Assembly: GCA_017527675.1 (NCBI GenBank)
Contig: JAFXPU010000024.1
Span: forward strand, 62,001 to 126,000
Origin: Bacilli bacterium
Lineage (GTDB): Bacteria > Bacillota_I > Bacilli_A > RF39 > UBA660
Length of the DNA: 64,000 nt
Direction of reading: 5' to 3'
Positions 2,889-18,519 of the stretch are shown piece after piece. A program made the translations under genes and the position numbers. Within the stretch, counting starts at the first letter, position 1. Every line of letters starts with the position of its first letter. The notes below the pieces were generated by a model. The model was not told the DNA's origin and did no database searches. It worked only from the letters and a program-made list of their open reading frames with translations.

Positions 2889-3959
2889 ATGTTTTTTAAA
2901 TCTATTCATAAACGTCTTAAAATAATTGGTATTATAATTACATTTTTATTTTTATTAATTATTTTTAAAGTATTTTATATTCAGTTTTTTTCTTATAAAA
3001 AATTAAATAAATTAGCTTCTAGTTTATGGAATAGAAATTTACCAATTGAAGCTAATAGAGGAAATATTTATGATAGAAATGGTAATGTTTTAGCAGGCAA
3101 TATTACAACTACATCTTTAGTTTTAATTCCAAATCAAATAAAGAATAAAGAATTAACTGCTCAAAAATTAGCTGAAATATTAAATGTATCATATGACGAA
3201 ATGCTAAAACATGTATCAAAGAAGACATCTATTGAACGTGTTCATCCTGAAGGTCGAAGATTATCTTATGAAGTTGCCGATCAAATAAAAGAATTAAATT
3301 TAGATGGTGTTTATTTAGTTAAAGAAGCTAAAAGAGACTATCCAAATCAAGAATTACTTGCTCACACATTAGGTTTTGTTGGTATTGATAATCAAGGTTT
3401 AGCTGGTCTAGAACTTATTTATGATAAATATCTTACAGGTTCAAATGGAGCTATTAAGTATTATGCTGATGCTAAAGGGAATAATTTAGCTTATGCATCT
3501 AAATATGTTAAACCACAAGATGGTATGAATATTACTCTAACAATTGATTTAGATATTCAAAAGTCCTTAGAAAGAGAATTAGATAATGCTATTACTAAAT
3601 ATAATCCTGATGGTGCTTGGGGAATAGTAATGGATCCTAATAATGGAGAAATTTTGGCAATGGCTTCACGTCCTTCTTTTAATCCAACTAATTATCAAGA
3701 ATATGATAAAGAAAGCATTAATAGAAATGTACCTATTTGGATGACCTATGAACCGGGTTCGACTTTTAAAATCATTACTCTTGCAGCTTCCTTAGAAGAA
3801 AAGACAATTGATTTAAATGATCATTTTTTTGATTCAGGTTCAATTAAAGTTGGAGGAGCAACATTGCATTGCTGGCGTCATGGTGGTCATGGCGAGGAAA
3901 CATATTTAGAAGTTGTTGAAAATTCTTGTAACCTAGGTATCAGGCGAGAGATACAATAA
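2889..3959 (+). CDS. SpoVD/FtsI-type penicillin-binding protein, 5' part, interrupted by the element
   Basis: This is the N-terminal part of a class B PBP, the septal or spore peptidoglycan transpeptidase. It has a membrane anchor at about residues 12-32 and the RGNIYDRNG dimerisation-domain motif at 57-65. The catalytic SxxK motif is STFK at 291-294 and the SxN motif is SCN at 346-348. True PBP sequence ends at Asn348. The last eight residues, up to the stop at 3957-3959, are read from the inserted element. The KTG box and the PASTA domain lie 13.7 kb away at 17659-18519. As it stands the product lacks the KTG motif and should not be an active transpeptidase. An AGGTG site precedes the ATG. 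Position near mraY and ftsW marks it as part of a division cluster. Confidence 0.9.
   Translation: MFFKSIHKRLKIIGIIITFLFLLIIFKVFYIQFFSYKKLNKLASSLWNRNLPIEANRGNIYDRNGNVLAGNITTTSLVLIPNQIKNKELTAQKLAEILNVSYDEMLKHVSKKTSIERVHPEGRRLSYEVADQIKELNLDGVYLVKEAKRDYPNQELLAHTLGFVGIDNQGLAGLELIYDKYLTGSNGAIKYYADAKGNNLAYASKYVKPQDGMNITLTIDLDIQKSLERELDNAITKYNPDGAWGIVMDPNNGEILAMASRPSFNPTNYQEYDKESINRNVPIWMTYEPGSTFKIITLAASLEEKTIDLNDHFFDSGSIKVGGATLHCWRHGGHGEETYLEVVENSCNLGIRREIQ
3930..3938 (+). other. Left attachment-site core (attL)
   Basis: AACCTAGGT is matched by AACCCAGGT at the right end, with one central mismatch. In the PBP frame the right copy gives Asn-Pro-Gly, which fits the family's usual SCNPGF. The left copy gives Asn-Leu-Gly. 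The chromosome therefore probably supplied AACCC and the crossover dinucleotide lies left of the mismatch, in AACC. This position is inference. Confidence 0.75.
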
Positions 3960-4198
3960 ACCCATTGAAAAATAAGGGTAAAACGACTATTTGCCAGTTA
4001 TATCAACCTAGAGTTTTGGCAAGAGATACTATAAAATTCAAAAATGTGTATGAACATCAAATGTGGAATGTTGATTATACTTATGAAGTAGAATTAGTAT
4101 CATTAAATGATTTAGTTGGAGAACATTCAGTTGTCCATACAAAAGAGTTTAAAGAGTTTGCAAAAGAAAAATTAGTAAAGAAAGTAGATATGGAATAA
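3935..4198 (+). other. Reading frame predicted to be the recombinase C-terminus in the excised circle
   Basis: An 88-codon open frame runs from the attL core to the stop at 4196-4198. It has no ribosome-binding site and no convincing start (only a TTG at 3965). When the element ends are joined at the core, the serine recombinase frame (CAA CCY AGG) continues in register into this frame. That adds about 87 residues after Gln-Gln-Pro, including ICQLYQPRVLARDT and a charged helical end with KEFKEFAKEKL. I do not recognise the domain. The alternative is a decayed gene that happens to be in frame. Confidence 0.55.
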
Positions 4199-4788: not shown

Positions 4789-4812
4789 ATTATGCAAGAG
4801 AATGAAAAAAAT

Positions 4813-4833: not shown

Positions 4834-4836
4834 AAA

Positions 4837-4857: not shown

Positions 4858-4876
4858 TAATAAAGCTTTTTTTAAT

Positions 4877-4903
4877 TTGACCATAATTAAGTTGACTATA
4901 ATT
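4877..4903 (+). repeat. Arm-type direct repeats, left pair
   Basis: Two copies of TTGACYATAATT lie 15 bases apart (4877-4888 and 4892-4903). The second copy is identical to 6018-6029. Pairs of short direct repeats near both core-type sites resemble the arm sites bound by the N-terminal domain of Tn916-type integrases. Confidence 0.5.
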
Positions 4904-5990
4904 TATTAATAAAACTTCTCTTGCTATTTATTGTTGGATGAACATAAATATTCATTGTTGTAGTTATATTTGAATGTCCTAATAATTCCATTAATGTTTT
5001 ATAATCGATACCTATATCGATACAATCAGTTGCAAATGTATGTCGCAAATCATGATAAGTGTAATTCAAATTTAATTGGTTTGTAAATCTTTTGTAATGA
5101 TTATAAAATGTTCGAGGATCCATAAACTTATTTTTACCTGTAAGTAAATAATTATCATCATTATAATTATTTTTTATTTTACATAAATCATTATATAATT
5201 TATCGGGAATTGGTAAAATTCTTATACTCTTTTCGGTTTTTGGTGTTGATAGTATTAATTTAGTTTTATTTCTTGTATTAAAAGATTTTACTCTTGATAC
5301 AATTCGGTTAATATATATTACTTTATTATTAATGTCTATATCCGAAATCCTTATTCCACAAACTTCTGATTCACGAATACCTAATAATAGAGATAACATT
5401 ATTCCTATAGTTATGGAGGAATCAGTTTTATTAAGACTTTTAACGAGTCGTTTTTTTTCATCAGCATATAAACTTTTACCTGTACCAATTTTTTTACTAA
5501 TTTTAATCATTTCAATTTTAATATTATTTTCATTAAATACTTGCTTTAATATATTACAAATATCATAAATAGTGTTTTTTGATAATCCACCAGATTTATC
5601 AAGCTTTCCACTATCAAGTTTTGACTGAAGATATTTATTTACAATTTCATCATTTAATTTGGATACTTTTACCATCCCAATATCATTTTTTATATGTTGA
5701 TTTATTAGATTAAAATAGCGTGTGTATGAAGATAACTTTATATTTTCTTTGCTCTCTAACCATTTAACGACAAGATCATTTAATGTTTTAATACCTTTAA
5801 TTCTTCTAGTTGTTTTAGGTTTTTCAATATGTAGATTACTCAAATATAAATTTCTTTTTTTCTTGCATTCACTATAAGTTCTACCATAGACATAACCATA
5901 AACTGCTTTTCCATCCTTATATTCTTTTATATATCTTCCTTCATATCTACCATCTTTTCTTTTAAAAATACTTTCTCCTTTTCGAGCCAT
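4896..5990 (-). CDS. Tyrosine recombinase (phage integrase family)
   Basis: A 364-residue enzyme with the usual three-part layout. A basic N-terminal arm-binding region (about 1-60) has GRYEGRYIKEYKDGK. A SAM-like core-binding domain spans about 70-170. The catalytic domain spans about 180-360. The catalytic residues are visible: Arg in LLLGIRESEVCG, HxxR in YHDLRHTFAT, His in LLGHSNITT and the nucleophile in MNIYVHP. I chose the ATG at 5990 because AAGGAGG lies 8 bases upstream; the longer GTG start falls inside that site. The gene lies between the two inverted core-type sites and diverges from the surface operon. It could be an inversion enzyme for that operon or the integrase of a nested element. 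Confidence 0.93.
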   Translation of the reverse strand: MARKGESIFKRKDGRYEGRYIKEYKDGKAVYGYVYGRTYSECKKKRNLYLSNLHIEKPKTTRRIKGIKTLNDLVVKWLESKENIKLSSYTRYFNLINQHIKNDIGMVKVSKLNDEIVNKYLQSKLDSGKLDKSGGLSKNTIYDICNILKQVFNENNIKIEMIKISKKIGTGKSLYADEKKRLVKSLNKTDSSITIGIMLSLLLGIRESEVCGIRISDIDINNKVIYINRIVSRVKSFNTRNKTKLILSTPKTEKSIRILPIPDKLYNDLCKIKNNYNDDNYLLTGKNKFMDPRTFYNHYKRFTNQLNLNYTYHDLRHTFATDCIDIGIDYKTLMELLGHSNITTTMNIYVHPTINSKRSFINKL

Positions 5991-6017
5991 AATTTTCACC
6001 TCCTTAGTATTAATTTT

Positions 6018-6041
6018 TTGACTATAATTTTGACTATTAAT
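6018..6041 (+). repeat. Arm-type direct repeats, right pair
   Basis: TTGACTATAATT at 6018-6029 is an exact copy of 4892-4903. It is followed at once by TTGACTATTAAT. It lies just upstream of the recombinase start and may bind the recombinase for both recombination and autoregulation. Confidence 0.5.
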
Positions 6042-6106
6042 TATAAAGGTTAATAAAATATTTGGTCACAATTTTGCGATTTTTTCGACAAATTTCGACT
6101 AAATTC

Positions 6107-6135
6107 TTGAAATAAATTTTTATTAATGCTACAAT
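6107..6135 (+). promoter_or_regulatory. Promoter of the surface-fibre operon
   Basis: TTGAAA, a 17-base spacer, and TACAAT form a good housekeeping promoter pointing at the operon. It lies inside the possible invertible segment, 48 bases before its right boundary. Transcription would begin near 6142 and give a leader of about 140 bases that includes the 6180-6206 palindrome. Confidence 0.75.
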
Positions 6136-6179
6136 GATATTGTAAAAATAGAGAGATGTATCCATATCTTGTAGCAGTT

Positions 6180-6206
6180 TTTCGTAAAGTAAATTACTTT
6201 ACGAAA
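6180..6206 (+). repeat. Right recombination-type inverted repeat
   Basis: A perfect 13-bp inverted repeat (TTTCGTAAAGTAA) is centred on one A. Read as a core site it is CGTAAAG, spacer TAAATTA, CTTTACG. It has no T-run after it, so it is not an obvious terminator. In the mRNA it would form a stable hairpin about 80 bases ahead of the first start codon. Confidence 0.7.
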
Positions 6207-6283
6207 TAGTAGTGCTTGTTTTTACACAAAATTTGAAGATACATAACATAGATTATGCATCTTGTAGTATTGGAGGTGAAACA

Positions 6284-6871
6284 ATGAAAAAGAAGAAAGT
6301 TTTAGCAGTATTAGTAGCATTATTATTAGTAGTAGGTGCAGGAGTTTATACTTATGCAAGATATACATTCTCTAGAACTGGTAGAGGCGAAGTTTCAGTT
6401 GCTAAATGGGCTGTAGTTTTAAATCAAGATAGTACAGCAGTTAGTAATGACTTTAATTTAGCTTTAACTTTATCAGAAAATAATAATGTTATTAATGGTA
6501 AAATTGCACCAGATAGAAGTGCTACTGCAACATTAGAACTAGATTTAACTGGTACTGAAGTTGCTACTGATATTTCAGTTGACTTAAGTAGTGTAACTGG
6601 TCTTCCAACTGGAATGACTATCTCAGGTGTAACTGCAAATGGAACAGCAATGACAAATACTTCTGGAGTTTACTCTACAACTATTGGATTAAATGCTGGA
6701 AAAACTGCTATTTCATCTGACACTGTAACATTAGTTATTACTGCAACTTGGGATAACGCTAGTGATGCAAACAATGATAATGACACAGGATACGGAGATG
6801 GAACACTTGATGCAGATTGGACTTTACAAATTCCTGTAAAAGTTACTGCTCAACAACATATCGGAGCTTAA
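6284..6871 (+). CDS. TasA/camelysin-like secreted fibre protein
   Basis: A 195-residue protein with a lysine-rich start, one hydrophobic segment and a cleavage region ending ARYTFSRTG. This is typical of SipW-dependent signal peptides. The mature part is rich in Thr, Ser, Ala and Gly, with beta-strand patterns (GKIAPDRSATATLEL near residue 80) as in TasA and CalY proteins. GGAGG sits 7 bases before the ATG at 6284. It is the first gene of an operon with a SipW-type peptidase, so it is likely the main subunit of a surface fibre. It has Trp-Asp-Asn and Asp-rich runs near 160-180 that may bind metal. The family call comes from motif appearance, not alignment. Confidence 0.75.
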   Translation: MKKKKVLAVLVALLLVVGAGVYTYARYTFSRTGRGEVSVAKWAVVLNQDSTAVSNDFNLALTLSENNNVINGKIAPDRSATATLELDLTGTEVATDISVDLSSVTGLPTGMTISGVTANGTAMTNTSGVYSTTIGLNAGKTAISSDTVTLVITATWDNASDANNDNDTGYGDGTLDADWTLQIPVKVTAQQHIGA

Positions 6872-6964
6872 TGATTTTTTAGGAAGTAATATTACTTCCT
6901 TTAAAGCCTATGAAATAATTTTGTAGGTTTTAACGAAGGTAATATTGATTTATGGAGTGATTTT

Positions 6965-7711
6965 ATGGAAAAAAAAGAGGATAGACCTATCAATAAAATA
7001 TTACTTTTTATTGTGGTTATATTAATTATAGTAATTATATTACTTTTATTAAGAGGATGTAGTAAGAAAGATGAAGGAACAAACAATAAAGGTAATATAA
7101 ATGTATTTGAATTAAAATGTGATACAAATTGTGATTGCACGGATGACAAAAAAGACGATAACAAGAAAGAAGACAATCCTAACACTTCAGGTAATAATAA
7201 TTCAAATTCAAATAGCAGTACTAAAAAAGATAACACTAAAGAAGTATATAAAGAAGTTGATGATAATAATACTGGTGAAGAAAATGAAGTTACTATAGAA
7301 GTACTTGATAATGATAAAACATGGAAAGAAAATACTGATATAAAATTATTTGAAGATTCTGCTAATGTAGTAAAAGGAAAGATTGCACCTGAATCAAGTG
7401 GAACATATCAATTTGTCATTAAAAACTCTACATCATTCAATGTTAAATATAATATAGAATTTGATGAAACTAATGACTATAACATAAATATGAAGTACAA
7501 ATTAAAAAAGAATAATGACTATGTTATTTCTGATTGGGTTACTTATTCTTCTCTTAAACAAGAGGCGATTAGACTAAATTCTAAATCAAGTGATACTTAT
7601 TATTTAGAATGGAAATGGTTTGAAGGTTCAAATGATAACTCAATTGGAAGTAATCCAAGTTCTAAATATGGCTTATCAATTGATATAAGTGCGGTGCAGG
7701 TAAATGATTAA
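6965..7711 (+). CDS. Membrane-anchored camelysin-like protein with Asn-rich linker
   Basis: 248 residues. One membrane segment spans about 13-30 and is followed by RGCSKK and a Cys-rich patch (ELKCDTNCDCTDDKK). A low-complexity Asn/Ser/Lys/Asp linker spans about 60-110. The C-terminal domain, about 115-248, repeats features of the neighbouring TasA-like protein: VVKGKIAPESSGTYQF and a closing LSIDISAVQ strand. It may anchor the fibre to the membrane. The gene ends inside the start of the signal peptidase gene with an 8-base overlap. Confidence 0.65.
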   Translation: MEKKEDRPINKILLFIVVILIIVIILLLLRGCSKKDEGTNNKGNINVFELKCDTNCDCTDDKKDDNKKEDNPNTSGNNNSNSNSSTKKDNTKEVYKEVDDNNTGEENEVTIEVLDNDKTWKENTDIKLFEDSANVVKGKIAPESSGTYQFVIKNSTSFNVKYNIEFDETNDYNINMKYKLKKNNDYVISDWVTYSSLKQEAIRLNSKSSDTYYLEWKWFEGSNDNSIGSNPSSKYGLSIDISAVQVND

Positions 7712-8279
7712 AAAATTAAATAAAACCCCAATTAAAATAATTGTTGATATTTTAACCTATGCATTAATTGTAATAGTAGGTTTATATTTATTATTCTCAA
7801 TTTATAATAAATTTATTACAAAAGATAAAGTAGTGTTAATTGGAAAATATTACATTTTTCAAATAGCAACAGGAAGCATGGAACATGAATTAGTTCCTGG
7901 AGATTATATTGTAGTTGAAAAAACAAATGATTATAAAGTAGGAGATATAGTTACTTATTTAGAAGATGGATATTATATTACCCATAGAATAAATAAAATA
8001 GATGAAAATTCAATAACTACAAAGGGTGATGCAAATACTGCATTAGATAATCCAATTAGTAAAGATAAAATAATTGGAAAATACTTATTTAAAGAAAAAA
8101 TTTTAACTTTTTTAACAAAATATAAAGTTCTTGTTATCGCTATATTATTGGCTTTGATTATTTTAGAAAGTGCATTTAAAGAAGATAACAAGGCTGATGA
8201 TAAAAATAAAAGTAAAAAAGAAAAAAGTAAAGATGAAGAAATAGAAAAGATTATTGATGAGGATATGGAAATTATATAA
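7704..8279 (+). CDS. sipW: SipW-type signal peptidase I
   Basis: 191 residues of the SipW/ER-like signal peptidase class. An N-terminal membrane segment spans about 10-32. The catalytic Ser is in ATGSMEHELVPGDYIVVEK, the conserved strand is KVGDIVTYLE, and HRI carries the catalytic His that replaces the Lys of ordinary bacterial SPase I. The TKGDAN box is also present. A second membrane segment lies near 140-157, then a charged tail. SipW enzymes process TasA-type fibre proteins, and the genes on both sides carry SipW-like signals. It overlaps the preceding gene by 8 bases. Confidence 0.92.
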   Translation: MIKKLNKTPIKIIVDILTYALIVIVGLYLLFSIYNKFITKDKVVLIGKYYIFQIATGSMEHELVPGDYIVVEKTNDYKVGDIVTYLEDGYYITHRINKIDENSITTKGDANTALDNPISKDKIIGKYLFKEKILTFLTKYKVLVIAILLALIILESAFKEDNKADDKNKSKKEKSKDEEIEKIIDEDMEII

Positions 8280-8317
8280 ATAATTAGAAAAAGTAGTAAA
8301 GATGGGAAGTGATGAAA

Positions 8318-8872
8318 ATGAAAAAGTTTAATGCTAAAATAGTAATATTGGCTATTTTATTAGTTAGTTTTACTTTAGTTATTTTCGATGTCCCACAAAG
8401 TATAAGTAGATATGTATCTGGGAAAAATGGATCAAAAAATCTTGATGTTGCTAAATTTCAACCAAAATTAAATGGAAGTACAAATCTTTCTCAATCAATT
8501 GATTTAGCAGATACAATAACAACTAATAATTATTCTGATGACCTTGTGGCACCTGGAACAAATGGAGATATTGTATTAACTTTAGATTTTTCTGATGTTG
8601 ATGTATCTACTGATTATGTAATAAGTGTTGGTACAACTGATTTACCAACTAATTTGAGTTTATATTCTGATTCATCATACACAACGGCATTTTCAACAAT
8701 AAATGGAACATATACAATCGGAAGTTCTACAACACATACACAACATATTTATTGGAAATGGGATTATTTAACTGATTCAGCAAGTAATACAAATGATAAT
8801 CTCTATATGAATCATAATTTGTCAGTACCTGTTAATGTTACTGCATCACAGAAAGTAGGTGCAGGTAATTAA
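8318..8872 (+). CDS. SipW-dependent secreted protein, TasA-like
   Basis: A 184-residue protein with a hydrophobic segment at about 7-24 and the sequence SISRYVSGKNG at the expected cleavage region. The mature part is Thr/Ser/Asn/Asp-rich, with a Trp-Lys-Trp motif near 150 and a closing NLSVPVNVTASQKVGAG strand. That end closely parallels the end of the first operon gene. I chose the third ATG, 8 bases after GGGAAG. The stop overlaps the next ATG as TAATG. It is probably a minor fibre subunit. Confidence 0.7.
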   Translation: MKKFNAKIVILAILLVSFTLVIFDVPQSISRYVSGKNGSKNLDVAKFQPKLNGSTNLSQSIDLADTITTNNYSDDLVAPGTNGDIVLTLDFSDVDVSTDYVISVGTTDLPTNLSLYSDSSYTTAFSTINGTYTIGSSTTHTQHIYWKWDYLTDSASNTNDNLYMNHNLSVPVNVTASQKVGAGN

Positions 8873-9354
8873 TGAAAAAAATTAAAATATTTGTTTTAAG
8901 TTTTATTTTGGTAGCATTTGTATTTATAAGTTATATTCCAGATAAAACTTTTTCTAGGTATACAAAGAATGGTAGTGTTAATATAACTACTACCTCAGCT
9001 GATATGATATGTGATGCAACAATTGATAATCCAGGTACTTATATATCAAATGATGGATGGGCTTATTTTAAAGTTACTATTAAAAATTATAATACAAGCG
9101 GAGATATAACCGAAGTACCTATTCAATATAATCTAACTGTGTCAAATCAAACTGGTTCTTCTGCCGTATATAGATATTTGGATGCCTCTGGTAATTCAAA
9201 TAACTTTGAAAGCACTTTTACTACAAGAAATTATGCATTCACAACTGGAACTCAGCAAAGCCAAGTAATTAATGTTGAAGTAAAGACTGATTCAATGACA
9301 AGTGAAAATGTCGACTTTAAAGTAGACTTGAATTGCTTTCAGGTACAAAAGTAG
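8872..9354 (+). CDS. Small secreted protein with SipW-type signal
   Basis: 160 residues. A signal-anchor segment spans about 5-21, then FSRYTKNGS. A beta-rich mature domain has Cys near residues 46 and 155, which could form one disulfide. It resembles the other operon products at the signal but has a different core. It starts inside the stop of the preceding gene, so translation is coupled. It may be a pilin-like or assembly subunit. The exact role is unknown. Confidence 0.6.
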   Translation: MKKIKIFVLSFILVAFVFISYIPDKTFSRYTKNGSVNITTTSADMICDATIDNPGTYISNDGWAYFKVTIKNYNTSGDITEVPIQYNLTVSNQTGSSAVYRYLDASGNSNNFESTFTTRNYAFTTGTQQSQVINVEVKTDSMTSENVDFKVDLNCFQVQK

Positions 9355-9365
9355 GGGTGATTTAA

Positions 9366-11519
9366 ATGAAAAAGAAAAAGAAAATTTTAATTCTCGTTAT
9401 AATGTTAAGTTTATTATCACTTACTGCTATAACTACATATTCAAGATATGCAAAGACAGTTACTAAAACTGGAACTATTGCAACTGCTGATGTTGGATAT
9501 TGCCAAATTAATGGAATAACATCTTTTAAGGAATGTCTGATAAGAAATGATAGTCAACAATCACTTTCTTTAGCTTTAAATACAATTGATACAAGAACCA
9601 GTTTACTTAATTTGAATAACATAGAACCAGTTAATGCTTATGTTCCTAAAACAACATATACTAATGTAACAAACAAAACAAATACAACTGCTATGACTTA
9701 TACTAATGCTAATAGATTTACATATGTTGTTGAAAATAAATTAATTACTGAATTTGATGTTGATGATGCAGATATAACTAAAATAACATTTAATCCAACA
9801 ACTGGTTATTATACATATACAGGTTCTACAACAGGTAGTATGAATGACCTTATAACTACTGCTACTGACATGGAGAATGGTATATATAAATATACTTGTT
9901 TAAATACAACTACAAATGGTAATTGTACTTCTTTATTCTTGTTTACTGAAGAACCATATTTAATATCAGGCTATTATAGATTTAAACAAGGTTATACTTA
10001 TTCATTTACGGTTACTGGTACATCTACTTCTAATGCAGGTCTTTATAAAGGAGAAGACGATTATACAGTTGACTCAAATACATATACATATTTTTATCGT
10101 GGAGATGTAAATAATAACTGGGTTAAATTCGGTAATTATTTATGGAGAGTTGTTAGAATAAATGGTGATGGTTCAATAAGAATGATTTACTCTGGTCTTG
10201 CTAGTGGTTCTAGTCATACTGGAAGTAATGCTCAAATTAAAACTTCTGCATATGGAGATACTCAGTCATTTACTGCAACAACTACTGATTTATATGATTC
10301 AAGTCAAACTATTACAACGACTTATTCAAATGGTAGATATGGAAATACAAATGTTGGTTATATGTATAATCCTGCTAAAATAATTAGTGTTTATCCAAAT
10401 AAAACACCTGATAATACAACAGTTAATAGATTAAATTATTTTCCAACTTTTATAAACATATCAAATACAACTAACTATTATTTCTTCAAAAATTTTGATC
10501 CAAGTACAGATTGTTTTACAGGAAGTGATTCTGATGAGTCTGGTGCATGTACATTAAAATGTAGAAGCAAAGGAAATGATGGAGATAGTGGTATAGATTG
10601 CATTCAAAGTAATTGGAATACACTTGCTACTACATCAGGTAATTATAGTGATTCTGCTGCAGGTATTTATCCAGCATCAAATCCATCTCAATACATTTAT
10701 ACAAGTGATTATAAATATACTTGTTGGAGTTATGGAACTCCTGTTACAAAATCCAATGGAGATGGAACAACAAGTGTTTATATAACTTGTCCAGTTGTAT
10801 CTGAAATAGTTGGTACAGTAAAAAATCAACCTACTCAAGCTAAAGTAAAATATCATGGACTATTTTCAGCAGATGCAACAACTGCAAATACAAATGTAAA
10901 AGATAGTAAGATTAAATCTGAGGTTGATTCGTGGTATGCAACAAATATATTAAATGCTAATGATGGAAATGGAAATGCTTTAGAAGATTATTTATCTGAT
11001 GAAATATTCTGCAATGATAGATCCTCAACAAGTACAGATTTCCCATTAGTTAATGGTGGTTCTTATTTATATGGTCCATATAGTAGAAATACTGCTGCAA
11101 ATAGAGTTCCAAGTTTTCGATGTCCAAATAAGAGTAATGATGCATTTACTTTAAAAACTTCAGGAGGAGTAAGTAGTGTAACTGCAAGTGGAGATGGTAA
11201 TAATAAACTTACTTATCCAGTTGGTTTAATTACAATAGATGAAGCAGCTTATGCAGGTGGTAAAAATGGTTCTATGAACTATAAATATTACCTTTATACT
11301 GGGGCTTATTACTGGACAATGTCGCCGTCTCACTTCAATTCGAATCCTGCGAACGCGATCGTCTGGATCGTCCATTCCGCTGGCAACCTGTCTAATACTA
11401 ATTCGGCGACTGCGTACGGTGTCCGCCCAGTTGTCAATCTGAACTCTGATGTTCTGTATTCTGGTGGAACTGGAACGGAGTCGGATCCATATATAATTAC
11501 ACTACCTAATGGATCGTGA
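9366..11519 (+). CDS. DGR variable protein: large secreted protein with C-terminal C-type-lectin-like domain
   Basis: 717 residues. A SipW-type signal ends near TYSRYAKT (about residue 30). A Thr/Asn-rich region of about 200 residues follows. Then comes a long domain starting near WVKFGNYLWRVVRINGDGS (about 245) and ending GVRPVVNL, the closing strand of the formylglycine-generating-enzyme or C-type-lectin fold used by DGR targets. Residues 652-688 are encoded by the variable repeat. Eleven codons there differ from the template, and all are amino acid changes. The last 30 residues (GGTGTESDPYIITLPNG) complete the fold. Its place at the end of a SipW/TasA operon suggests display on the fibre as a binding tip. 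Confidence 0.93.
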   Translation: MKKKKKILILVIMLSLLSLTAITTYSRYAKTVTKTGTIATADVGYCQINGITSFKECLIRNDSQQSLSLALNTIDTRTSLLNLNNIEPVNAYVPKTTYTNVTNKTNTTAMTYTNANRFTYVVENKLITEFDVDDADITKITFNPTTGYYTYTGSTTGSMNDLITTATDMENGIYKYTCLNTTTNGNCTSLFLFTEEPYLISGYYRFKQGYTYSFTVTGTSTSNAGLYKGEDDYTVDSNTYTYFYRGDVNNNWVKFGNYLWRVVRINGDGSIRMIYSGLASGSSHTGSNAQIKTSAYGDTQSFTATTTDLYDSSQTITTTYSNGRYGNTNVGYMYNPAKIISVYPNKTPDNTTVNRLNYFPTFINISNTTNYYFFKNFDPSTDCFTGSDSDESGACTLKCRSKGNDGDSGIDCIQSNWNTLATTSGNYSDSAAGIYPASNPSQYIYTSDYKYTCWSYGTPVTKSNGDGTTSVYITCPVVSEIVGTVKNQPTQAKVKYHGLFSADATTANTNVKDSKIKSEVDSWYATNILNANDGNGNALEDYLSDEIFCNDRSSTSTDFPLVNGGSYLYGPYSRNTAANRVPSFRCPNKSNDAFTLKTSGGVSSVTASGDGNNKLTYPVGLITIDEAAYAGGKNGSMNYKYYLYTGAYYWTMSPSHFNSNPANAIVWIVHSAGNLSNTNSATAYGVRPVVNLNSDVLYSGGTGTESDPYIITLPNGS
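11320..11430 (+). repeat. DGR variable repeat (VR)
   Basis: 111 bp within the 3' end of the 717-residue gene, aligned without gaps to 11622-11732. The two differ at 13 positions. At each of them the template has A and this copy has C, T or G. No other base differs. It ends in the GC-rich stretch GTGTCCGCCCAG, the place where the initiation-of-homing sequence is expected. Confidence 0.97.
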
Positions 11520-11523
11520 TAAT

Positions 11524-11553
11524 CGTGTGGTAATGACTCTTCATTACCACACG
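11524..11553 (+). promoter_or_regulatory. Perfect 13-bp hairpin downstream of the VR
   Basis: CGTGTGGTAATGA pairs with TCATTACCACACG around the 4-base loop CTCT, five bases after the target-gene stop. There is no T-run, so it is a weak terminator candidate. In the Bordetella phage DGR a hairpin or cruciform just downstream of VR is needed for retrohoming. This one lies 93 bases from the VR end and may have the same role. Confidence 0.6.
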
Positions 11554-11621
11554 CAAAATTAATTTTGGGATATATAAGATATATATCTTGGTTGATCTGA
11601 TATAAATTGCAGTGTGCCGTG

Positions 11622-11732
11622 TGTCGCCGTATAACTTCAATTCGAATAATGCGAACGCGAACGTCTGGAACGTCAATTCCACTGGCAACCTGAATAATAA
11701 TAATTCGGCGAATGCGAACGGTGTCCGCCCAG
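11622..11732 (+). repeat. DGR template repeat (TR)
   Basis: 111 bp, same orientation as VR. Read in the target frame it is rich in AAY codons at the variable positions, and one further A-containing codon, TAT, is changed too. AAY codons let adenine mutagenesis reach many amino acids without stops. About 33 of 111 bases are A and 13 of these are changed in the present VR. It is GC-rich compared with the DNA around it. Confidence 0.97.
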
Positions 11733-11951
11733 ATTCCTACTACAAATTAGTAATATAGTACTAACTAACCGAGATTTATAGGGCTAAGGCTCGTAAACAG
11801 AGGAAGTAATAATACTTTTAGCAGGTATTATGGTCTATAGATTGATAGATTGGAAACAAGATTGACCATGAAATAATTTTATTTCTAAATATATAATACT
11901 AGACGAAGTTAGACAATAAAGAAATATTTTTTAACTTCTATTGCTGTATTG

Positions 11952-11985
11952 AGCAGGAGAAGAAATTCTCCTGCTATATTTTTGT
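11952..11985 (+). terminator. Hairpin with GAAA tetraloop at the end of the template RNA
   Basis: AGCAGGAGAA pairs perfectly with TTCTCCTGCT around GAAA and is followed by ATATTTTTG. It could end the template RNA or limit read-through into the accessory genes, whose ribosome-binding site follows directly. Confidence 0.7.
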
Positions 11986-11998
11986 AAAGGAGGAGATT

Positions 11999-12400
11999 AT
12001 GAAAGAAAAATATGAAATACAAAAAAATGAAAATTTGCAAAGTATTATATTAATTAAATCTGGTAATTTCTATGCCACGATTAATGATGATTCATTTATT
12101 ATGAAGAAATTATTTAACTATCAAATTATCAAAGGGAAGGTGGGATTTCCATTAAATGCTATTGATAAAGTTAAAAGTAGGTTGAATGATTTAAGGGTAA
12201 ATTATCTAATCTATAATAGTGAAGATGATATTGATAAACAAGTATTTGATGATAACACCTACAATGCAATATTAAATGAATATAAAAAGCAAGAATATAA
12301 AGATAATATGAAAAAATTATTGTTTGATAGAATAGAGTACTTGATAAATGATAATTCAGATAATTATGATAAGATAAGGAAGTTTGTGGATGAACTCTAA
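11999..12400 (+). CDS. MutS domain I-like DGR accessory protein (MSL-type)
   Basis: 133 residues. The first 80 follow the pattern of the mismatch-recognition domain I of MutS: IKSGNFYATINDDSF matches the GxFYexFxxDA segment. VGFPLNAIDKVKSRLNDL matches the GVPxxxxxxyxxxL segment. The Glu of the MutS Phe-x-Glu motif is replaced by Ala, so base-mismatch reading as in MutS is unlikely to be intact. The C-terminal 50 residues are charged and helical. Small MutS-like genes are known near some DGR reverse transcriptases. It has a strong AAAGGAGG site and overlaps the next gene by 11 bases. Confidence 0.72.
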   Translation: MKEKYEIQKNENLQSIILIKSGNFYATINDDSFIMKKLFNYQIIKGKVGFPLNAIDKVKSRLNDLRVNYLIYNSEDDIDKQVFDDNTYNAILNEYKKQEYKDNMKKLLFDRIEYLINDNSDNYDKIRKFVDEL

Positions 12401-12740
12401 TTTTTTCTTACTAAATAAATGTTATCAAACAATAGAATATTATAATAAAAGACTTATTAATTATCCAAAGCGTGAAATGTTATTAAAGCAAAATATTGAA
12501 AAGACTTATTATGAAATGATAGAGTGCTTATTTTCTTTTAATATAAATAATAGTGAAAGAATTAAACAAAAATATTTAAAGGATTTTTTAGTTAAAGTAT
12601 CTATGCTTGATTTTTATACAAGAATTAGTAATTTAAAAAAAGTTATTAGTAAAAGACAGTTTGAAGTCATTGGAAATAGAATTACTGAACTTCGTAAAAT
12701 GGCTTATGGATTAATCAAAAATGAAAAAGTCGAGGATTAA
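12390..12740 (+). CDS. avd: Avd-type DGR accessory protein (four-helix bundle)
   Basis: 116 residues, all helical by pattern and basic, the size of the Bordetella Avd. The C-terminal helix reads ITELRKMAYGLIKN, similar to the RxxxxGW-type end of four-helix Avd proteins. Avd forms a pentameric barrel that binds the reverse transcriptase and the template RNA. The ATG at 12390 follows AAGGAAG at good spacing. It lies between the MutS-like gene (11-base overlap) and the reverse transcriptase (20-base overlap). This is the expected place for avd. Confidence 0.82.
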   Translation: MNSNFFLLNKCYQTIEYYNKRLINYPKREMLLKQNIEKTYYEMIECLFSFNINNSERIKQKYLKDFLVKVSMLDFYTRISNLKKVISKRQFEVIGNRITELRKMAYGLIKNEKVED

Positions 12741-13854
12741 CTTATTCAATTATGATAATTTATTAGATATTTATAAATTACTAGATATCTATAATAGAAT
12801 TAAAAGTAATTGTAAGCATAAAGATAAAATATTTAAGTTTGAAATGTTTCAATCATCCTATATAACTGAAGTGCTTGGTGTATTAAGAAGTAGGAAATAT
12901 AACCATGGTAAATATAACATTTTTATAATATTAGAACCAAAAAGTAGAATAATAATGAGTGAAAATATGGGAGATAAAATAATTAATCACTTATTAAGTC
13001 ATTATGTTTTGTTTCCATTAATCGAACCTATGTTAATTGATGCTAATGTGGCAACTAGAACTGATAAGGGAACAAAAGCGGGTATTTATTACATGAAAAA
13101 GTATATTAATTCAATGAAACAAAAACATAATAAATTTTATGTCTTGAAATGTGATGTATCAAAATTTTTTTATCAAATAGACCATGAAATATTATTAGAA
13201 AAATTGAAAGGTATCATAGTAGATGAAGATATATATAATTTAACTGAAGAAATTATAAATAGTACAAATTATTCATATTTAGGAGAAACTATAAAAGATT
13301 TGATTTCAAAAAGAAAAGAATATATTAGTAAGTTAAAAATATCGGAAAATGAAAAAAAGCTAAAATATGAAGAGTTAGATAGAATACCTCTATATGATTT
13401 TAATAAAGGATTACCGATTGGAAATATGTCCTCACAAATATTTGCAATTTTTTATTTAAATGACTTGGATCATTATATAAAAGAAAAACTGAAAATAAAG
13501 TGTTACATAAGGTATATGGATGATCTAATTTTAATACATGAAGATAAAGAGTATTTAAAATATTGTTTAGAAGAAATTGATAAGAAAATTGAAGAAGTTA
13601 GATTATCATTAAATTCTAAAACACAAATAACCGAAATACATGATGGTGTTAGTTTTTTAGGATATAAATTTATTTTAAAAAATAATAGATTAAATATGCT
13701 AATTAGTTCTAAGGCTAAAAGAAGGATGAATAGAAAACTAAAAACAATAAAAAGAAAAGAGAGAACGGAGTTCTTAAGAAGAAGATATAATGGTTATTTA
13801 GCTTATGGAGATACTAGAGGATTTATGCATAGTAAATCTTGGAAAAAATTTTAG
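12721..13854 (+). CDS. DGR reverse transcriptase
   Basis: 377 residues. Motif A is VLKCDVSKFFYQIDHEIL. The group-specific box GLPIGNMSSQIFAIFYLNDLD has the GLPIGNxxSQ form of DGR enzymes. The catalytic YMDD box is IRYMDDLILI. The thumb-side segment GVSFLGYKFILKNNRLN is also present. There is no maturase or endonuclease domain, as is normal for DGR enzymes. It copies the template RNA with adenine misincorporation and feeds the cDNA into the variable repeat. It starts within the end of avd without a clear ribosome-binding site, so translation is probably coupled. Confidence 0.97.
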   Translation: MKKSRINLFNYDNLLDIYKLLDIYNRIKSNCKHKDKIFKFEMFQSSYITEVLGVLRSRKYNHGKYNIFIILEPKSRIIMSENMGDKIINHLLSHYVLFPLIEPMLIDANVATRTDKGTKAGIYYMKKYINSMKQKHNKFYVLKCDVSKFFYQIDHEILLEKLKGIIVDEDIYNLTEEIINSTNYSYLGETIKDLISKRKEYISKLKISENEKKLKYEELDRIPLYDFNKGLPIGNMSSQIFAIFYLNDLDHYIKEKLKIKCYIRYMDDLILIHEDKEYLKYCLEEIDKKIEEVRLSLNSKTQITEIHDGVSFLGYKFILKNNRLNMLISSKAKRRMNRKLKTIKRKERTEFLRRRYNGYLAYGDTRGFMHSKSWKKF

Positions 13855-13884
13855 AATAAGAAATATTCTATTTTATTTAATATT

Positions 13885-13917
13885 TTTGCCCCACAATACC
13901 GATATTTGTGATATAAT
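13885..13917 (+). promoter_or_regulatory. Operator and promoter-like sequence downstream of the reverse transcriptase
   Basis: TTTGCCCCACAATACC (13885-13900) is repeated with one mismatch at 14452-14467, upstream of the regulator gene. A TATAAT lies at 13912-13917. A transcript from here would run into the 3' end of the regulator gene with no open frame of note. It may be a left-over from a lost gene or a site for the regulator. Confidence 0.45.
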
Positions 13918-13956
13918 AATTTTGGAGATTATATAAAGAAGGTGTTTAATATAAAA

Positions 13957-13979
13957 AAAGACTTAATTAATAAGTCTTT
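13957..13979 (-). terminator. Terminator of the first HTH regulator gene
   Basis: A 9-bp stem (AAAGACTTA with TAAGTCTTT) is followed on the minus strand by seven T. It overlaps the regulator stop codon. Confidence 0.75.
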
Positions 13980-14403
13980 ATGAAAGTAACGTATCAGCGG
14001 AAATATTATACTTGTTACATAATTGTAATAAGAAAGAAGTTTGTATTAATGTAATTCCATTTTCATATTCGGAAATGACTGATTGTGTGCATTGTAAGAA
14101 ATCAGCAATTTCTTCTTGTGATTCATTATTTTTAATACGTAGTTTCTTAAGTTTGTTACCAATTAATTGGCTATCAATCTTTAATTTGTTATTTGTTATT
14201 GATCTGTCATTATTTAAACCTAAAACGTAATCTAAAGAACGATTAGATAAATTACATAAATCTACTAAATGCGTTAAGGGAATAATTTTTTCACCAGTTT
14301 CCCATCTTGCATAAGTAGACTTAGAAATTTGTAATTCTTCCGCCAGTTCACGTTGTGACAGATTAAGCATTTCTCTAATGAGAGTTATTCTTTCATTTAT
14401 CAT
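13978..14403 (-). CDS. Tandem-HTH XRE-family regulator 1
   Basis: 141 residues with two XRE-type helix-turn-helix domains. The first (about 1-58) has LSQRELAEELQISKSTYARWE. The second (about 75-138) has ESQEEIADFLQCTQSVISEYE. Two HTH domains in one chain could bind an inverted repeat as a single protein. AGGTGG precedes the ATG at 14403. It is paralogous to the protein at 14697-15149. A copy of the TTTGCCCCACA repeat lies 50 bases upstream, which suggests autoregulation. It is probably the element's repressor for surface or DGR genes, by inference. Confidence 0.8.
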   Translation of the reverse strand: MINERITLIREMLNLSQRELAEELQISKSTYARWETGEKIIPLTHLVDLCNLSNRSLDYVLGLNNDRSITNNKLKIDSQLIGNKLKKLRIKNNESQEEIADFLQCTQSVISEYENGITLIQTSFLLQLCNKYNISADTLLS

Positions 14404-14451
14404 ATATTCCACCTAATTATATTATCTCAAAAAAACAAGTTTTTTTGTCTA

Positions 14452-14467
14452 TTTGCCCCACATTACC
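14452..14467 (+). promoter_or_regulatory. Putative operator upstream of regulator 1
   Basis: TTTGCCCCACATTACC is a near copy of 13885-13900 in the same orientation. The two sites bracket the regulator gene. Confidence 0.45.
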
Positions 14468-14561
14468 AATAAATAGCTATAAATAAATGGGTACATCTCG
14501 CAATATTAAATATAATACTAAATTTTAATAAAATAATCTATTTGGTGTAATAGGGTAAACA

Positions 14562-14650
14562 CAAAAAAATCGTCCCTGTACAAGCAGACGATTCTACTAC
14601 TCAACCAAGATACTGTTATGGTTGAATCAATTGATGCATTATCAACTGGC
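14562..14650 (-). ncRNA. Candidate small RNA between the two regulators
   Basis: The 293 bases between the two regulator genes hold a near-consensus promoter on the minus strand (14657-14685). About 55-80 bases later comes a 7-bp hairpin (AATCGTC with GACGATT) followed by seven T. A second hairpin (TCAACCA with TGGTTGA) lies between. The transcript would be about 90 bases with no start codon of note. It could regulate an element gene by pairing. It could also be only the 3' trailer of regulator 2. Confidence 0.45.
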
Positions 14651-14656
14651 AATTTA

Positions 14657-14685
14657 ATGATATCAGGATTGTCGAGAAATGTCAA
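14657..14685 (-). promoter_or_regulatory. Near-consensus promoter for the candidate small RNA
   Basis: On the minus strand TTGACA, exactly 17 bases, then TATCAT. This is the best -35 box in the element. It starts only a few bases after the stop of regulator 2. Confidence 0.65.
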
Positions 14686-14696
14686 TATTTGTTTGC

Positions 14697-15149
14697 TTAT
14701 TTTATCTTTGGATTAGTTTCAATCTTTCCACAGAGCCAATCCATTGATACGTTATAGTGCTTTGCAAATTCAACTAAAGGATAAGTACGAATTATAATTT
14801 TTCCATGTTCATACTTTGAATAATTAGATTGATCTACATTTATTGCGTTTGCTACGGCATTCTGAGTATCATTATTATTAATTCTAACTTCACGCATTCT
14901 TTCACCAATTTGTGTTAGATTAATTTCATTTTTCATATTCTTATAATTTGTAACTTCAGATATATCACATATATAATCTAAACTTATATTAAAGTGGTTA
15001 CAAAATTCATTTAATTTTTGAATAGATATTGGGTCAATTCCATTTTCCCAACCTGCATAGTTGGATCGACTTGTTTTTAAAATATCTGCCATTTGTTTTT
15101 GAGTAATTAAATAGTATGTTCTAATTTCCTTCATTTTTTCATATATCAT
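14697..15149 (-). CDS. Tandem-HTH XRE-family regulator 2
   Basis: 150 residues with two XRE HTH domains: ITQKQMADILKTSRSNYAGWE near residue 15 and DTQNAVANAINVDQSNYSKYE near residue 90. The layout is the same as in regulator 1, so the pair arose by duplication or repeated acquisition. The ATG at 15149 follows GAGGTG. The gene diverges from the promoter and palindromic operator at 15194-15235, which leads to the recombinase operon. It is therefore a good candidate repressor of excision and integration. Confidence 0.8.
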   Translation of the reverse strand: MIYEKMKEIRTYYLITQKQMADILKTSRSNYAGWENGIDPISIQKLNEFCNHFNISLDYICDISEVTNYKNMKNEINLTQIGERMREVRINNNDTQNAVANAINVDQSNYSKYEHGKIIIRTYPLVEFAKHYNVSMDWLCGKIETNPKIK

Positions 15150-15193
15150 GGTACACCTCACTAATATAATTTTCTCAAAAAATCTATAAATAT

Positions 15194-15235
15194 TAAAAAA
15201 ATGTCGGGTATATACCTAAAATGTGTTATAATTTT
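15194..15235 (+). repeat. 42-bp direct repeat, right copy: promoter of the recombinase operon
   Basis: It is a near-identical copy of 4747-4788. It contains the perfect palindrome GGTATATACC (15207-15216) and TATAAT at 15227-15232. There is no good -35 box, so it may depend on an activator. It is divergent from regulator 2, a classic position for an operator. Confidence 0.8.
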
Positions 15236-15289
15236 TAAAAGGAGGTCAATATACATAATTTTAATTTAAAACATTGTTTACACATACTA

Positions 15290-15565
15290 ATGAAGAGTGT
15301 TATAATAACAGCACTTATAAGTCCAATTTTATTGTTGATTTTTTATTTAGTTAAAATGGATTTCCGTTTTGCTACTTATGTTTGTAAAATTTGTAATATA
15401 CTTGAAGATTTAGCAATAACTGTTATGAGTCCGGGATTTGCAAATAATATAATTATTTTAAGTTTGGTTTTTGAGTTTGGTTTAGGATGTTGGTTAATAA
15501 CTAAATTAACTAAAACTAAACTATTTAATAATATTAAAAATTTTATTGAAAACTTAATATTTTAA
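15290..15565 (+). CDS. Small membrane protein of the recombinase operon
   Basis: 91 residues from the ATG at 15290, with two membrane segments (about 4-20 and 58-75) and a loop with two Cys. I do not recognise the family. The only good ribosome-binding site, AAGGAGG at 15239-15245, lies 6 bases before an in-frame ATA at 15251. The real start may therefore be that ATA, adding 13 residues, or the gene may have lost its start codon. It is the first gene after the 42-bp promoter repeat. A role in the element, for example as a holin-like or exclusion protein, is only a guess. Confidence 0.5.
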   Translation: MKSVIITALISPILLLIFYLVKMDFRFATYVCKICNILEDLAITVMSPGFANNIIILSLVFEFGLGCWLITKLTKTKLFNNIKNFIENLIF

Positions 15566-15577
15566 ATAATGATTTAT

Positions 15578-15688
15578 AAGGGGGTACTCTTTCTCATTAA
15601 GAAAATATTGGGTTTCAAATATATCGAAAAAAGTTGGAACTCAATATTTGAGTTCTTTTTTTCGTAAGAACTTAATAAGCTTAATGAG
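15578..15688 (+). promoter_or_regulatory. Transcription attenuator before the recombinase genes
   Basis: A strong terminator (GAACTCAA, 3-base loop, TTGAGTTC, then seven T; 15637-15662) lies between the membrane-protein gene and the recombinase genes. The segment 15603-15618 can pair over 16 positions, two of them G-U, with 15634-15649. This would consume the left arm of the terminator and act as an antiterminator. CTCATTAAG (15593-15601) also pairs with CTTAATGAG (15680-15688), which sits against the ribosome-binding site of the next gene. A leader frame of 23 codons from an ATT at 15596, after AAGGGGG, runs through the whole structure. Translation of it may set the fold. Confidence 0.65.
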
Positions 15689-15700
15689 AGGAGGGATATT

Positions 15701-15895
15701 TTGGAATTTGCAGAAGAATTAGAAACTTATACAAATACAAAAGAATTACCGAAAGAGTACCTCATATTAAAATTAAGAATATCTTTAAATAAAGATTTAT
15801 ACGAAAGTAAAGTTATTACATATGATATATATAATATAATGCAACAACTATTATTTAAAAAGATGGATAAAATGATTTTAGAACATAAAAAATAG
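15701..15895 (+). CDS. Small protein preceding the serine recombinase
   Basis: 64 residues from a TTG that follows GAGGAGGG by 5 bases. The product is charged and helical, with no membrane segment. Small helical proteins directly ahead of large serine recombinases often serve as partners or directionality factors, but nothing in the sequence proves that here. It lies 22 bases before the recombinase start and is controlled by the attenuator. Confidence 0.55.
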   Translation: MEFAEELETYTNTKELPKEYLILKLRISLNKDLYESKVITYDIYNIMQQLLFKKMDKMILEHKK

Positions 15896-15917
15896 TATTA
15901 AAGAAAGGAGCAAATTT

Positions 15918-17675
15918 ATGAATATAATAAAAGTTAGGCAAGAACTAGCAATGGGTAAAAACATATATGATATGCCATTACGAGTTGTTGATTATGGTAG
16001 AGTATCTACTGATAAAGATGAACAATTAAACTCATTAACTAATCAAGCTAATTATTTTAATGATATGATAGATGGAATAAAGAATTGGAATCATGTTGGA
16101 TCTTATGCAGATGAAGGTATAAGTGGAACACAGGTATATAAAAGAGAAGATTTTTTAAGAATGATAGAAGATGCAAGACTTGGTAAGTTTGATATGATTG
16201 TTACAAAAGAAATATCTAGATTTGCTCGTAATACTATTGATAGTATTAAATATACTCAATTACTTTTAAGTTATGGAGTAATAGTATTTTTTATATCAGA
16301 TAATATTAATACCATAAATCCAGATAGCGAATTTAGATTAACATTAATGGCAAGTATGGCACAAGATGAAGTAAGAAAACTTTCTGAAAGAGTTAAGTTT
16401 GGTATTAGAAGAAGTATAAAAGATGGAAAACTTGGCGGTGGCAATCTTTATGGTTATAACAAAAAAGATTGTGTATTAACTATAAATGAAGATGAAGCAA
16501 AAGTTGTAAAAAAGATATTTGAACTTTATGCATCAGGAGAATATGGATTTACTAAAATTGGAGAAATGTTAGCAAATGAAGGACATTATACTAGAGCAGG
16601 TAAAGTATTTAGTATGCCAACATTAAAGAAAATGATAAGAAATCCAAGATATAAAGGTTGGTTTACTGCTAATTTAAGTGAAGTGGAAGATTATAAAACG
16701 CATAAAAAAATAAATAAACCAAGAGAAGAATGGATTATGTATAAAGATGAAAGTGGTAGAGTTCCTGCAATAATAGATGAAGAATTGTGGGATAAAGCAA
16801 ATCAAGTTCATAATGAACGAATGAGTAAGTGGAACAAAAATGTTTTAAATAAAGAGTTTTATTTAGAAAATAGAAACTATACATCAAAGATATTTTGTAT
16901 GGAACATAATACAACTTTTATTCGTTCGGCATCTTGTAAAAGAAAAGAAAATCCAGTATGGCAATGTAATGAATTTTTAAGACATGGTATTAAAGGTTGT
17001 GCTACTCCAAGATTATTTGAAAAACACCTTGATGAAATATTTGCAACAATGCTTGAAAAAATAGTAGATAACCGTGATGAAATATTAAATAGTATAACTA
17101 ATGATTATGTTAGTTTAATTAAAGAAAGTAATAATAGTTATGATGTAGATAATTTAAAAGCAAAATTAAGAGAACAACAAACATTAAAAGATAGACTATT
17201 AGATATGTCATTAAGAAATATGATTAATGATAATGAATTTATGGAAAAGAATAAATCTATAAGTGATGAGATAGCATCATTAAATAAACAAATATTAGTA
17301 ATAGAAAGTAATAAAGAATCAACTGCATATTATGATAAAATAGTTGAACAAATAAGAAATGAATTAAAACCTAAATTAGATATAAGAAAGAATATTGGAA
17401 AATATTTTAATCTATTTATAGATAAAGTTTTTGTAAGTAAGATAGATAATGATAGAAAACATATTAAATTACAAATGATTTTTAACTTTAAAAGAGAAGA
17501 TGAAGAAATAGAAATTCACCAAAGGAACAATTCTAATGGAACAGGATCGGATAATTCAAAAAATGAAAAAACCCTTATAAATCAAAGAGATTACAATGTT
17601 AGAGTATCGTTTGATACTAATTATTTACGACAAAAGTATCTCTTGCTTAATGCCCAGCAACCCAGGTTTTGTTAA
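15918..17675 (+). CDS. Large serine recombinase (site-specific integrase/excisionase)
   Basis: 585 residues. The resolvase domain has the catalytic Ser30 in YGRVSTDKDEQ and the Arg-rich KEISRFARNT segment. The recombinase domain follows at about 170-270 (GGGNLYGYNKK to RNPRYKGWF). A zinc ribbon at about 325-365 uses Cys residues in KIFCMEH, ASCKRKE, WQCNE and KGCATP. A long coiled coil spans about 395-455. This is the expected architecture for integrases of this class. The reading frame runs through the right att core and stops 8 bases inside PBP sequence. The last residues (RFC) are therefore encoded by the host gene. In the circular form the frame would continue for about 87 more residues. 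Confidence 0.96.
   Translation: MNIIKVRQELAMGKNIYDMPLRVVDYGRVSTDKDEQLNSLTNQANYFNDMIDGIKNWNHVGSYADEGISGTQVYKREDFLRMIEDARLGKFDMIVTKEISRFARNTIDSIKYTQLLLSYGVIVFFISDNINTINPDSEFRLTLMASMAQDEVRKLSERVKFGIRRSIKDGKLGGGNLYGYNKKDCVLTINEDEAKVVKKIFELYASGEYGFTKIGEMLANEGHYTRAGKVFSMPTLKKMIRNPRYKGWFTANLSEVEDYKTHKKINKPREEWIMYKDESGRVPAIIDEELWDKANQVHNERMSKWNKNVLNKEFYLENRNYTSKIFCMEHNTTFIRSASCKRKENPVWQCNEFLRHGIKGCATPRLFEKHLDEIFATMLEKIVDNRDEILNSITNDYVSLIKESNNSYDVDNLKAKLREQQTLKDRLLDMSLRNMINDNEFMEKNKSISDEIASLNKQILVIESNKESTAYYDKIVEQIRNELKPKLDIRKNIGKYFNLFIDKVFVSKIDNDRKHIKLQMIFNFKREDEEIEIHQRNNSNGTGSDNSKNEKTLINQRDYNVRVSFDTNYLRQKYLLLNAQQPRFC
17659..17667 (+). other. Right attachment-site core (attR)
   Basis: AACCCAGGT is the partner of 3930-3938. 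PBP coding sequence resumes here in the frame that continues the 5' part. The recombinase frame also crosses the site, in a different register. Confidence 0.75.
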
Positions 17676-18519
17676 TATGGGTTTAAAATTAGGGAAAGAA
17701 ACTTTATTTAAATATATTGATAATTTTGGTTTTGGTCATAAGACCGGCGTTGAATTAAATGGCGAAGAAAATGGTATTATATTTGATATTAATAAAATAG
17801 GGGATTTAGAACTAGCTACAACGGCTTTTGGTCAAGGTGTATCTGTTACTCCAATACAGCAAATAACAGCTGTATCAGCAGCTATTAATGGGGGAATATT
17901 ATATCAACCGCATATTGTTAAAAGTATTAATGAACCAGAATTAAATAATGTAATATTAGATACGGAAATAAAAAAAATAAGACAAGTTATTAGCCCAGAA
18001 ACGAGTAAGCAAGTTAGATATGTTTTAGAAAGTGTTGTTGCTAAAGGTACAGGTCATAATGCCTATATTCCTAACTATCGGGTTGGTGGTAAGACAGGTA
18101 CTGCTCAAAAGGTTAATAATGGTGCTTATATGACTGGTAATTATATAACTTCTTTTATTGGTTTTATGCCAGCTGATGATCCTAAAATAGTTGTTTATAT
18201 TGCTGTTGATAATGCTAAAGGAGTAACTCAATATGGTGGAACTATAGCTGCTCCTATTGCTAAAAATGTTTTACTCGATTCTATAAATATTTTAAATATT
18301 GAACCAAGAGATAATGAAATAGAAAAAGAATATGTTTATTTAGATAAAGTTTATAGTGATATACCTAATGTTATTGGTATGAATTATGATGAAGCTAAAA
18401 ATAGTTTAAAAAATTTTAAAGTATTAAAAATTGGAGAGGGAACTGTTAAATATCAGAGTCCTAAAGCAGGTATTAAAATTGAAACTGGAACCGAAGTAAG
18501 GCTTTTTTTATCAAGTTAA
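17659..18519 (+). CDS. SpoVD/FtsI-type penicillin-binding protein, 3' part
   Basis: It encodes the rest of the transpeptidase domain from Asn348 on, with the KTG motif in VGGKTGTAQKVN. A single PASTA domain follows at the C-terminus (IPNVIGMNYDEAKNSL to GTEVRLFL). PASTA domains bind peptidoglycan and are found in SpoVD and Pbp2x-type proteins. An in-frame ATG lies 9 bases ahead, but there is no ribosome-binding site. A separate product is thus unlikely while the element is in place. Joined to 2889-3929 it gives 633 residues, close to the normal family length. Confidence 0.92.
   Translation, partial: NPGFVNMGLKLGKETLFKYIDNFGFGHKTGVELNGEENGIIFDINKIGDLELATTAFGQGVSVTPIQQITAVSAAINGGILYQPHIVKSINEPELNNVILDTEIKKIRQVISPETSKQVRYVLESVVAKGTGHNAYIPNYRVGGKTGTAQKVNNGAYMTGNYITSFIGFMPADDPKIVVYIAVDNAKGVTQYGGTIAAPIAKNVLLDSINILNIEPRDNEIEKEYVYLDKVYSDIPNVIGMNYDEAKNSLKNFKVLKIGEGTVKYQSPKAGIKIETGTEVRLFLSS

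Follow-up and report, generated by a model that had tools for sequence, protein, structure and literature searches.

The integrase of Myxococcus phage Mx8, IntP, belongs to the tyrosine family. In Mx8, and also in Mx9, attP is located within the integrase coding sequence and integration supplies the gene with a new 3' end; the altered Mx8 integrase stays active, with changed behaviour (PMC6070905). Archaeal suicidal integrases, such as those of SSV1, pTN3, and pT26-2, also carry attP in the integrase gene, which is split by integration, and a 2021 review described recombinases that disrupt their own gene as exclusive to archaea (PMC8371274). In the integration-dependent immunity of the mycobacteriophages BPs and Brujita (PMC4557955, PMC6109161), attP is located in the coding sequence of the repressor, and integration removes C-terminal residues that form an ssrA-like degradation tag, marking the prophage. 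Large serine recombinases (LSRs) that insert elements at conserved sites in host genes have been catalogued, and a text search of that catalogue brought up nothing on C-terminal or DUF5655 features (PMC10083194).

The locus described here shares its layout with several of these systems. As in Mx8, the C-terminus of the recombinase is replaced by a short host-encoded tail (the 585-aa protein ends in RFC). However, Mx8 is a phage of another phylum with a tyrosine-family integrase, whereas the enzyme here is an LSR that targets a PBP gene and loses a conserved accessory domain, in most cases one with DUF5655. As in the archaeal suicidal integrases, attP is located in the recombinase gene, which is split on integration. 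Those enzymes are tyrosine recombinases whose catalytic domain ends up in Int(C) after the split, with inactive pieces as the result, whereas here a serine recombinase keeps its catalytic domain and LSR core in one piece. The first-pass annotation of this DNA named immunity switches as the nearest precedent, but Mx8 IntP and the archaeal suicidal integrases are closer. Unlike in BPs and Brujita, the affected gene encodes a recombinase, and what it loses is a conserved domain that looks folded and has no ssrA-like end. The enzyme resembles the catalogued LSRs in that its element goes into a conserved position within a host gene. Two other types of recombinase are known to have attP within their own gene, but we found no description of attP inside an LSR gene in the open-access literature.

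The analyzed window is a stretch of 64,000 nucleotides (G000:C8:62001-126000) that forms part of a 1.13 Mb draft genome. An element of ~13.7 kb (~3934-17658) interrupts a SpoVD/PBP2-like gene and carries the gene of a large serine recombinase at its right end (Table 1). The insertion point falls at codons NSCN^PGF of the PBP gene, and the att cores are located exactly there. An uninterrupted PBP homologue (L028, 15555-17450) contains the same site, and many relatives carry the same element type at exactly the identical codon, NSCN^PGF. Joining the two ends rebuilt an attP with an imperfect inverted repeat, GTATCTCTTGC..AACC..GCGAGAGATAC. The arms of this repeat are in the 3' end of the recombinase gene and the 5' end of the extension, which places attP in mid-ORF once the ends are joined. 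As is typical of LSRs, attP and attB are unlike each other apart from the short AACC core, and attP is an inverted repeat; independent insertions occur at the same site. The element was inserted into the SpoVD/PBP2-like gene by its own LSR.

Table 1 Coordinates of the element, its insertion site, and the retroelement it carries (positions in the window).
Feature	Position	Strand	Remark
PBP gene 5' part (SpoVD/PBP2-like transpeptidase)	2889..3933	+	codons 1-348, to NSCN
attL core AACC	3930..3933	+	
C-terminal extension	3935..4198	+	87 codons to 4195, stop 4196-4198
Left attP arm GCGAGAGATAC	3944..3954	+	inverted repeat of right arm
Inner second copy of left attP arm GCAAGAGATAC	4019..4029	+	
Retroelement variable repeat	11320-11430		inside ORF 9366-11519
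Retroelement template repeat	11622-11732		
Retroelement Avd-like gene	12384-12740		
Retroelement reverse transcriptase	12721-13854		
Large serine recombinase, integrated form	15918..17675	+	585 aa; core in codon 582
Right attP arm GTATCTCTTGC	17637..17647	+	in recombinase 3' end, codes part of QKYLLL
PBP gene 3' part	17659..18519	+	NPGFVN... PASTA-like end
attR core AACC	17659..17662	+	

Several other features of this region were observed. The host genome contains four other transpeptidase-type PBP genes (G000:C15, C23, C11, and C8:30944-31789), so the interrupted PBP may be dispensable, or it may be restored only when the element exits. The repeated left attP arm is in frame, ~25-28 codons into the extension, in the window and in three relatives (G047, G055, and L025); in G185 and G377, this inner arm takes the junction position. 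A diversity-generating retroelement occupies 9366-13854, and all 13 differences between its template and variable repeats are at adenines. Near-identical direct repeats of 42 bp (4747-4788 and 15194-15235) flank this retroelement together with a tyrosine recombinase gene (4896-5999, minus strand), which suggests a second element nested within the first.

The window enzyme has the resolvase catalytic domain (PF00239, 98.2 bits) and the Recombinase domain (PF07508, 75.7 bits) of large serine recombinases, each above the Pfam cut-off. The recombinase zinc ribbon (PF13408, E 3.2e-4) scored 21.4 bits, below its cut-off of 25.3, and the protein matched PHROG 95 (integrase) with an E value of 2.4e-102. 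The first-pass annotation had placed the att core inside the recombinase frame and had the integrated frame end after three host-encoded residues. Both claims were borne out: AACC falls in codon 582, and the protein of 585 aa ends in ...LLLNAQQ-P-RFC-stop. When the ends were joined at the core, the recombinase grew from 585 to 669 aa, in agreement with the ~87 further codons that had been predicted for the circle. The extension is in frame with 15918-17661 only in the circular form, and a first-order Markov model of the surrounding sequence gave ~5e-5 as the chance of so long a frame past the core. The extension had also been described as having no start of its own, which was right for ATG and GTG near the junction and overlooked an in-frame TTG at 3965.

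We compared the window recombinase with its relatives, the close ones of which were found in uncultured Bacilli, including Candidatus Onthousia faecigallinarum. A total of 32 right ends were tabulated at the PBP-348 site. The frame was open through the core in 20 of them, all in phase 1. The core in these frames was at codons 557-614, so insertions and deletions in the linker had kept the frame. In G191, the frame passes through the core in a different phase, and 11 of the 32 stop 10-26 codons ahead of the core, with phases 0, 1, and 2 mixed. Recombinases that stop before the core are 527-546 aa long, which means that the integrated form of 585 aa keeps the whole LSR core and that integration removes the accessory domain rather than the enzyme. 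Some of the relatives stopping 10-26 codons before the core retain an intact recombinase ORF; either the extra domain is dispensable in some elements or these copies are stuck.

Joining the ends gave lengths of 769 (G185), 806 (G047), 835 (G055), 873 (G034), and 911 aa (G050 and G307) where the domain was intact. Other joined frames reached 706 aa (L025) and 804 aa (G204, where a contig end cuts the frame), and some were shorter or broken (609 in G384, 592 with a frameshift in G383, 618 in G276, and 585 in G372). For G047, G055, G185, G383, G050, G307, and G204, the left and right ends are on separate contigs and were paired by their att arms and the presence of a single element of that type. 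No natural unsplit copy came to light for the 348-site groups, whose long forms are rebuilt circles; the natural unsplit copy belongs to the 415 type described below. The extension is often broken in integrated copies (the window, L025, G384, G383, G230, G263, and G377) while the recombinase frame upstream stays open; at least 10 integrated extensions are intact.

The extensions fall into two related types. Type A (the window, L025, G047, G055, G185, and G383) spans 190-221 aa in its complete form. Type B, which G034 and others carry, is ~308 aa long (307-313); it begins at the first codon past the core in ~20 genomes and is complete in ~12. DUF5655 (PF18899) was detected above the Pfam gathering cut-off in five of eight extensions tested (G034, G418, G261, G307, and G047) and below it in G055, with no match in G185 and G383. 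We found no paper naming DUF5655 in the open-access literature, and comparison of the group B extension with solved structures gave no clear relative. The C-termini of the extensions (VDME, LQV, LYY, or LINI) are not ssrA-like. Conservation begins with the first codon after the core. The dN/dS of the extension was 0.09-0.15 among G307, G050, G344, and G204, 0.18-0.25 among G418, G277, and G161, and 0.16 between G353 and G261; in distant pairs it was 0.2-0.8, with synonymous sites near saturation, so that little can be said from those pairs. The low values, together with the 20 of 32 frames that run through the core in one phase, support conservation of the longer recombinase in homologous elements, a check that the first-pass annotation had proposed, and the circle frame is a real coding sequence. 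Homology between the window extension and the type A extensions of G047, G055, and G185 covers the first ~90 residues of the latter. A rep-like ORF takes over after these residues, and the DUF5655 half is missing, with no DUF5655 match in the Pfam search. The extension in the window is therefore probably a remnant, and the switch there is probably degenerate. G307, G050, G034, G047, and G185 are better suited than the window for studying it.

In group C (G161, G418, G277, and G350), the extension is kept at attL and the recombinase ends before the core. The group C recombinases of L101, L102, L103, and L097 end 17-24 codons short of the core, although the group B extension facing them is intact; downstream of the one in L097 come an attP-like junction and the beginning of an extension of this kind. 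We considered whether the T-runs of group C allow programmed frameshifting or slippage, but frames and stops vary among its members. Fusion to the PBP frame was rejected, because in the tabulated left ends a stop codon closes the PBP frame within 8-18 codons of the core.

The recombinases at other sites in the PBP gene were also analyzed. At the site near residue 415, all 10 recombinases run into host sequence, and four of five joined left ends gave exactly 579 aa with a conserved tail of 35 aa; in the fifth (G220), the joined frame was broken at 554. At residue ~403, joining extended the recombinase of G301 from 564 to 607 aa. The recombinases examined at residue ~295 stop before the core, so these elements provide a natural control. 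Three natural copies of the 415-type attP turned up among the 386 genomes searched. In G218:C20, the recombinase is one uninterrupted ORF of 579 aa with attP inside, the length of the four rebuilt 415-site circles, and the DNA past attP matches the left end of G287 (205 bp at 83%). Here the first-pass annotation's central claim, that integration swaps the C-terminus of the recombinase, finds its counterpart in natural DNA. The G218 contig lacks a terminal overlap that would mark it as a circle. In the other two copies, the recombinase gene is broken by an IS21-like insertion (G217) or present only in part (G040). Among viral contigs, no circle was found; the recombinase query returned only two distant matches, and neither the extension queries nor the attP patterns had a match. 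No match was found in plasmids with the group A extension or in phages with the group B extension. In L095, L054, L096, and L030, a single PBP gene carries two or three recombinase elements together; the occupied residues (~295, 348, and 415) coincide with conserved PBP motifs or are close to them. In L030 (7380-8978) and L070 a recombinase of the family is reversed beside the PBP 5' half, as if inverted.

The recombinase DNA of G050 and G307, from two genera, is 98.8% identical, compared with 61.9% for the adjoining PBP DNA; in L024 and L025, the values are 99.4% and 73.1%, respectively. This indicates that the elements are mobile and that the insertions are recent and independent. A tree built from 53 recombinases needed at least 8 changes to account for the swap state, compared with 14.8 in shuffles. 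The swap occurs in the 415 group and in both large 348 groups and was therefore read as ancestral to them, with several losses. Patterns that had been named in advance as evidence against a swap were found, namely stops before the core (L029, G049, G351, and G246) and a frameshift (G383), but on the tree they behave as losses among relatives of the swap type. The swap thus looks ancestral but repeatedly lost, and the direction of change is unproven.

We consider it probable that the LSR gene spans attP and that integration cuts it between a complete core and a C-terminal accessory domain. The gene structure, its conservation, and the mobility of the elements are observations, as is the unsplit gene in natural DNA in one group. 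In the free circle, the gene would read through attP into the accessory domain, which has 35 aa in one group and 190-310 aa, usually with DUF5655, in the others. Recombination of attP with attB in the PBP gene would then split the recombinase between the LSR core and this domain, leaving in the chromosome a shorter enzyme with a few host residues at its end and a 3' fragment that has no start. We infer that the full-length enzyme would be the integrating form, its extra domain aiding attP-attB recombination, and loss of the domain may yield a form poor at re-integration or at excision, stabilizing the inserted state. That the family uses its own integration as an active switch, in which the cut at attP removes a DUF5655-type domain from an enzyme that is otherwise complete, is tentative and, in our view, a little on the doubtful side. 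The same caution applies to what the switch would produce from one gene, namely an enzyme that integrates while the element is circular and, once the element is in the chromosome, another form that may be competent for excision or locked. The interpretation in the first-pass annotation was thus borne out in part, its division into integrase and excisionase forms being tentative.

It is somewhat unlikely that the extension is instead a normal part of the enzyme needed only before integration, so that the swap plays no regulatory part and is a by-product of the position of attP within the gene, and the integrated copy is stranded and decays. The frequent breakage of integrated extensions behind an open recombinase frame would fit such decay, and archaeal suicidal integrases are left in a similar stranded state (PMC8371274). 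However, the short enzyme has every LSR core region, with its frame intact in nearly all copies, unlike that of a dead gene, and at least 10 of the integrated extensions are intact. Far less probable is that the extension is a separate gene abutting attP, with its own start and joined in frame by chance. The in-frame TTG in the window extension and the intact extensions of group C, where the recombinase stops before the core, could be read in this way. Yet the type B extensions share no start codon within their first 60 codons, with none at all in G261 and G282; conservation starts directly after the core, the phase is constant in 20 of 20 frames, and G218:C20 has a single ORF. We rejected the separate-gene explanation on the absence of a shared start, the conservation from the first codon, and the constant phase. 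We also regard as highly improbable a fused recombination directionality factor (RDF), under which the long form would tip the balance toward the circle and the short form toward insertion; that each state would then lock itself is just as improbable. A serine integrase to which an RDF was artificially fused is reported to reverse its direction (PMC5737554). However, an extension of this kind would work against the very integration it has to survive. No link between DUF5655 and RDFs is known, and searches with the extension gave nothing that resembles an RDF.

How serine integrases are kept working in one direction is a central issue in phage biology and in the use of these enzymes as genome tools. 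In this family, the enzyme itself records the state of the DNA, and there are matched long and short forms as well as several lineages that have lost the long form, in the setting of uncultured gut bacteria. Together with Mx8, this family shows that the layout is wider than archaea and arose in an unrelated recombinase family.
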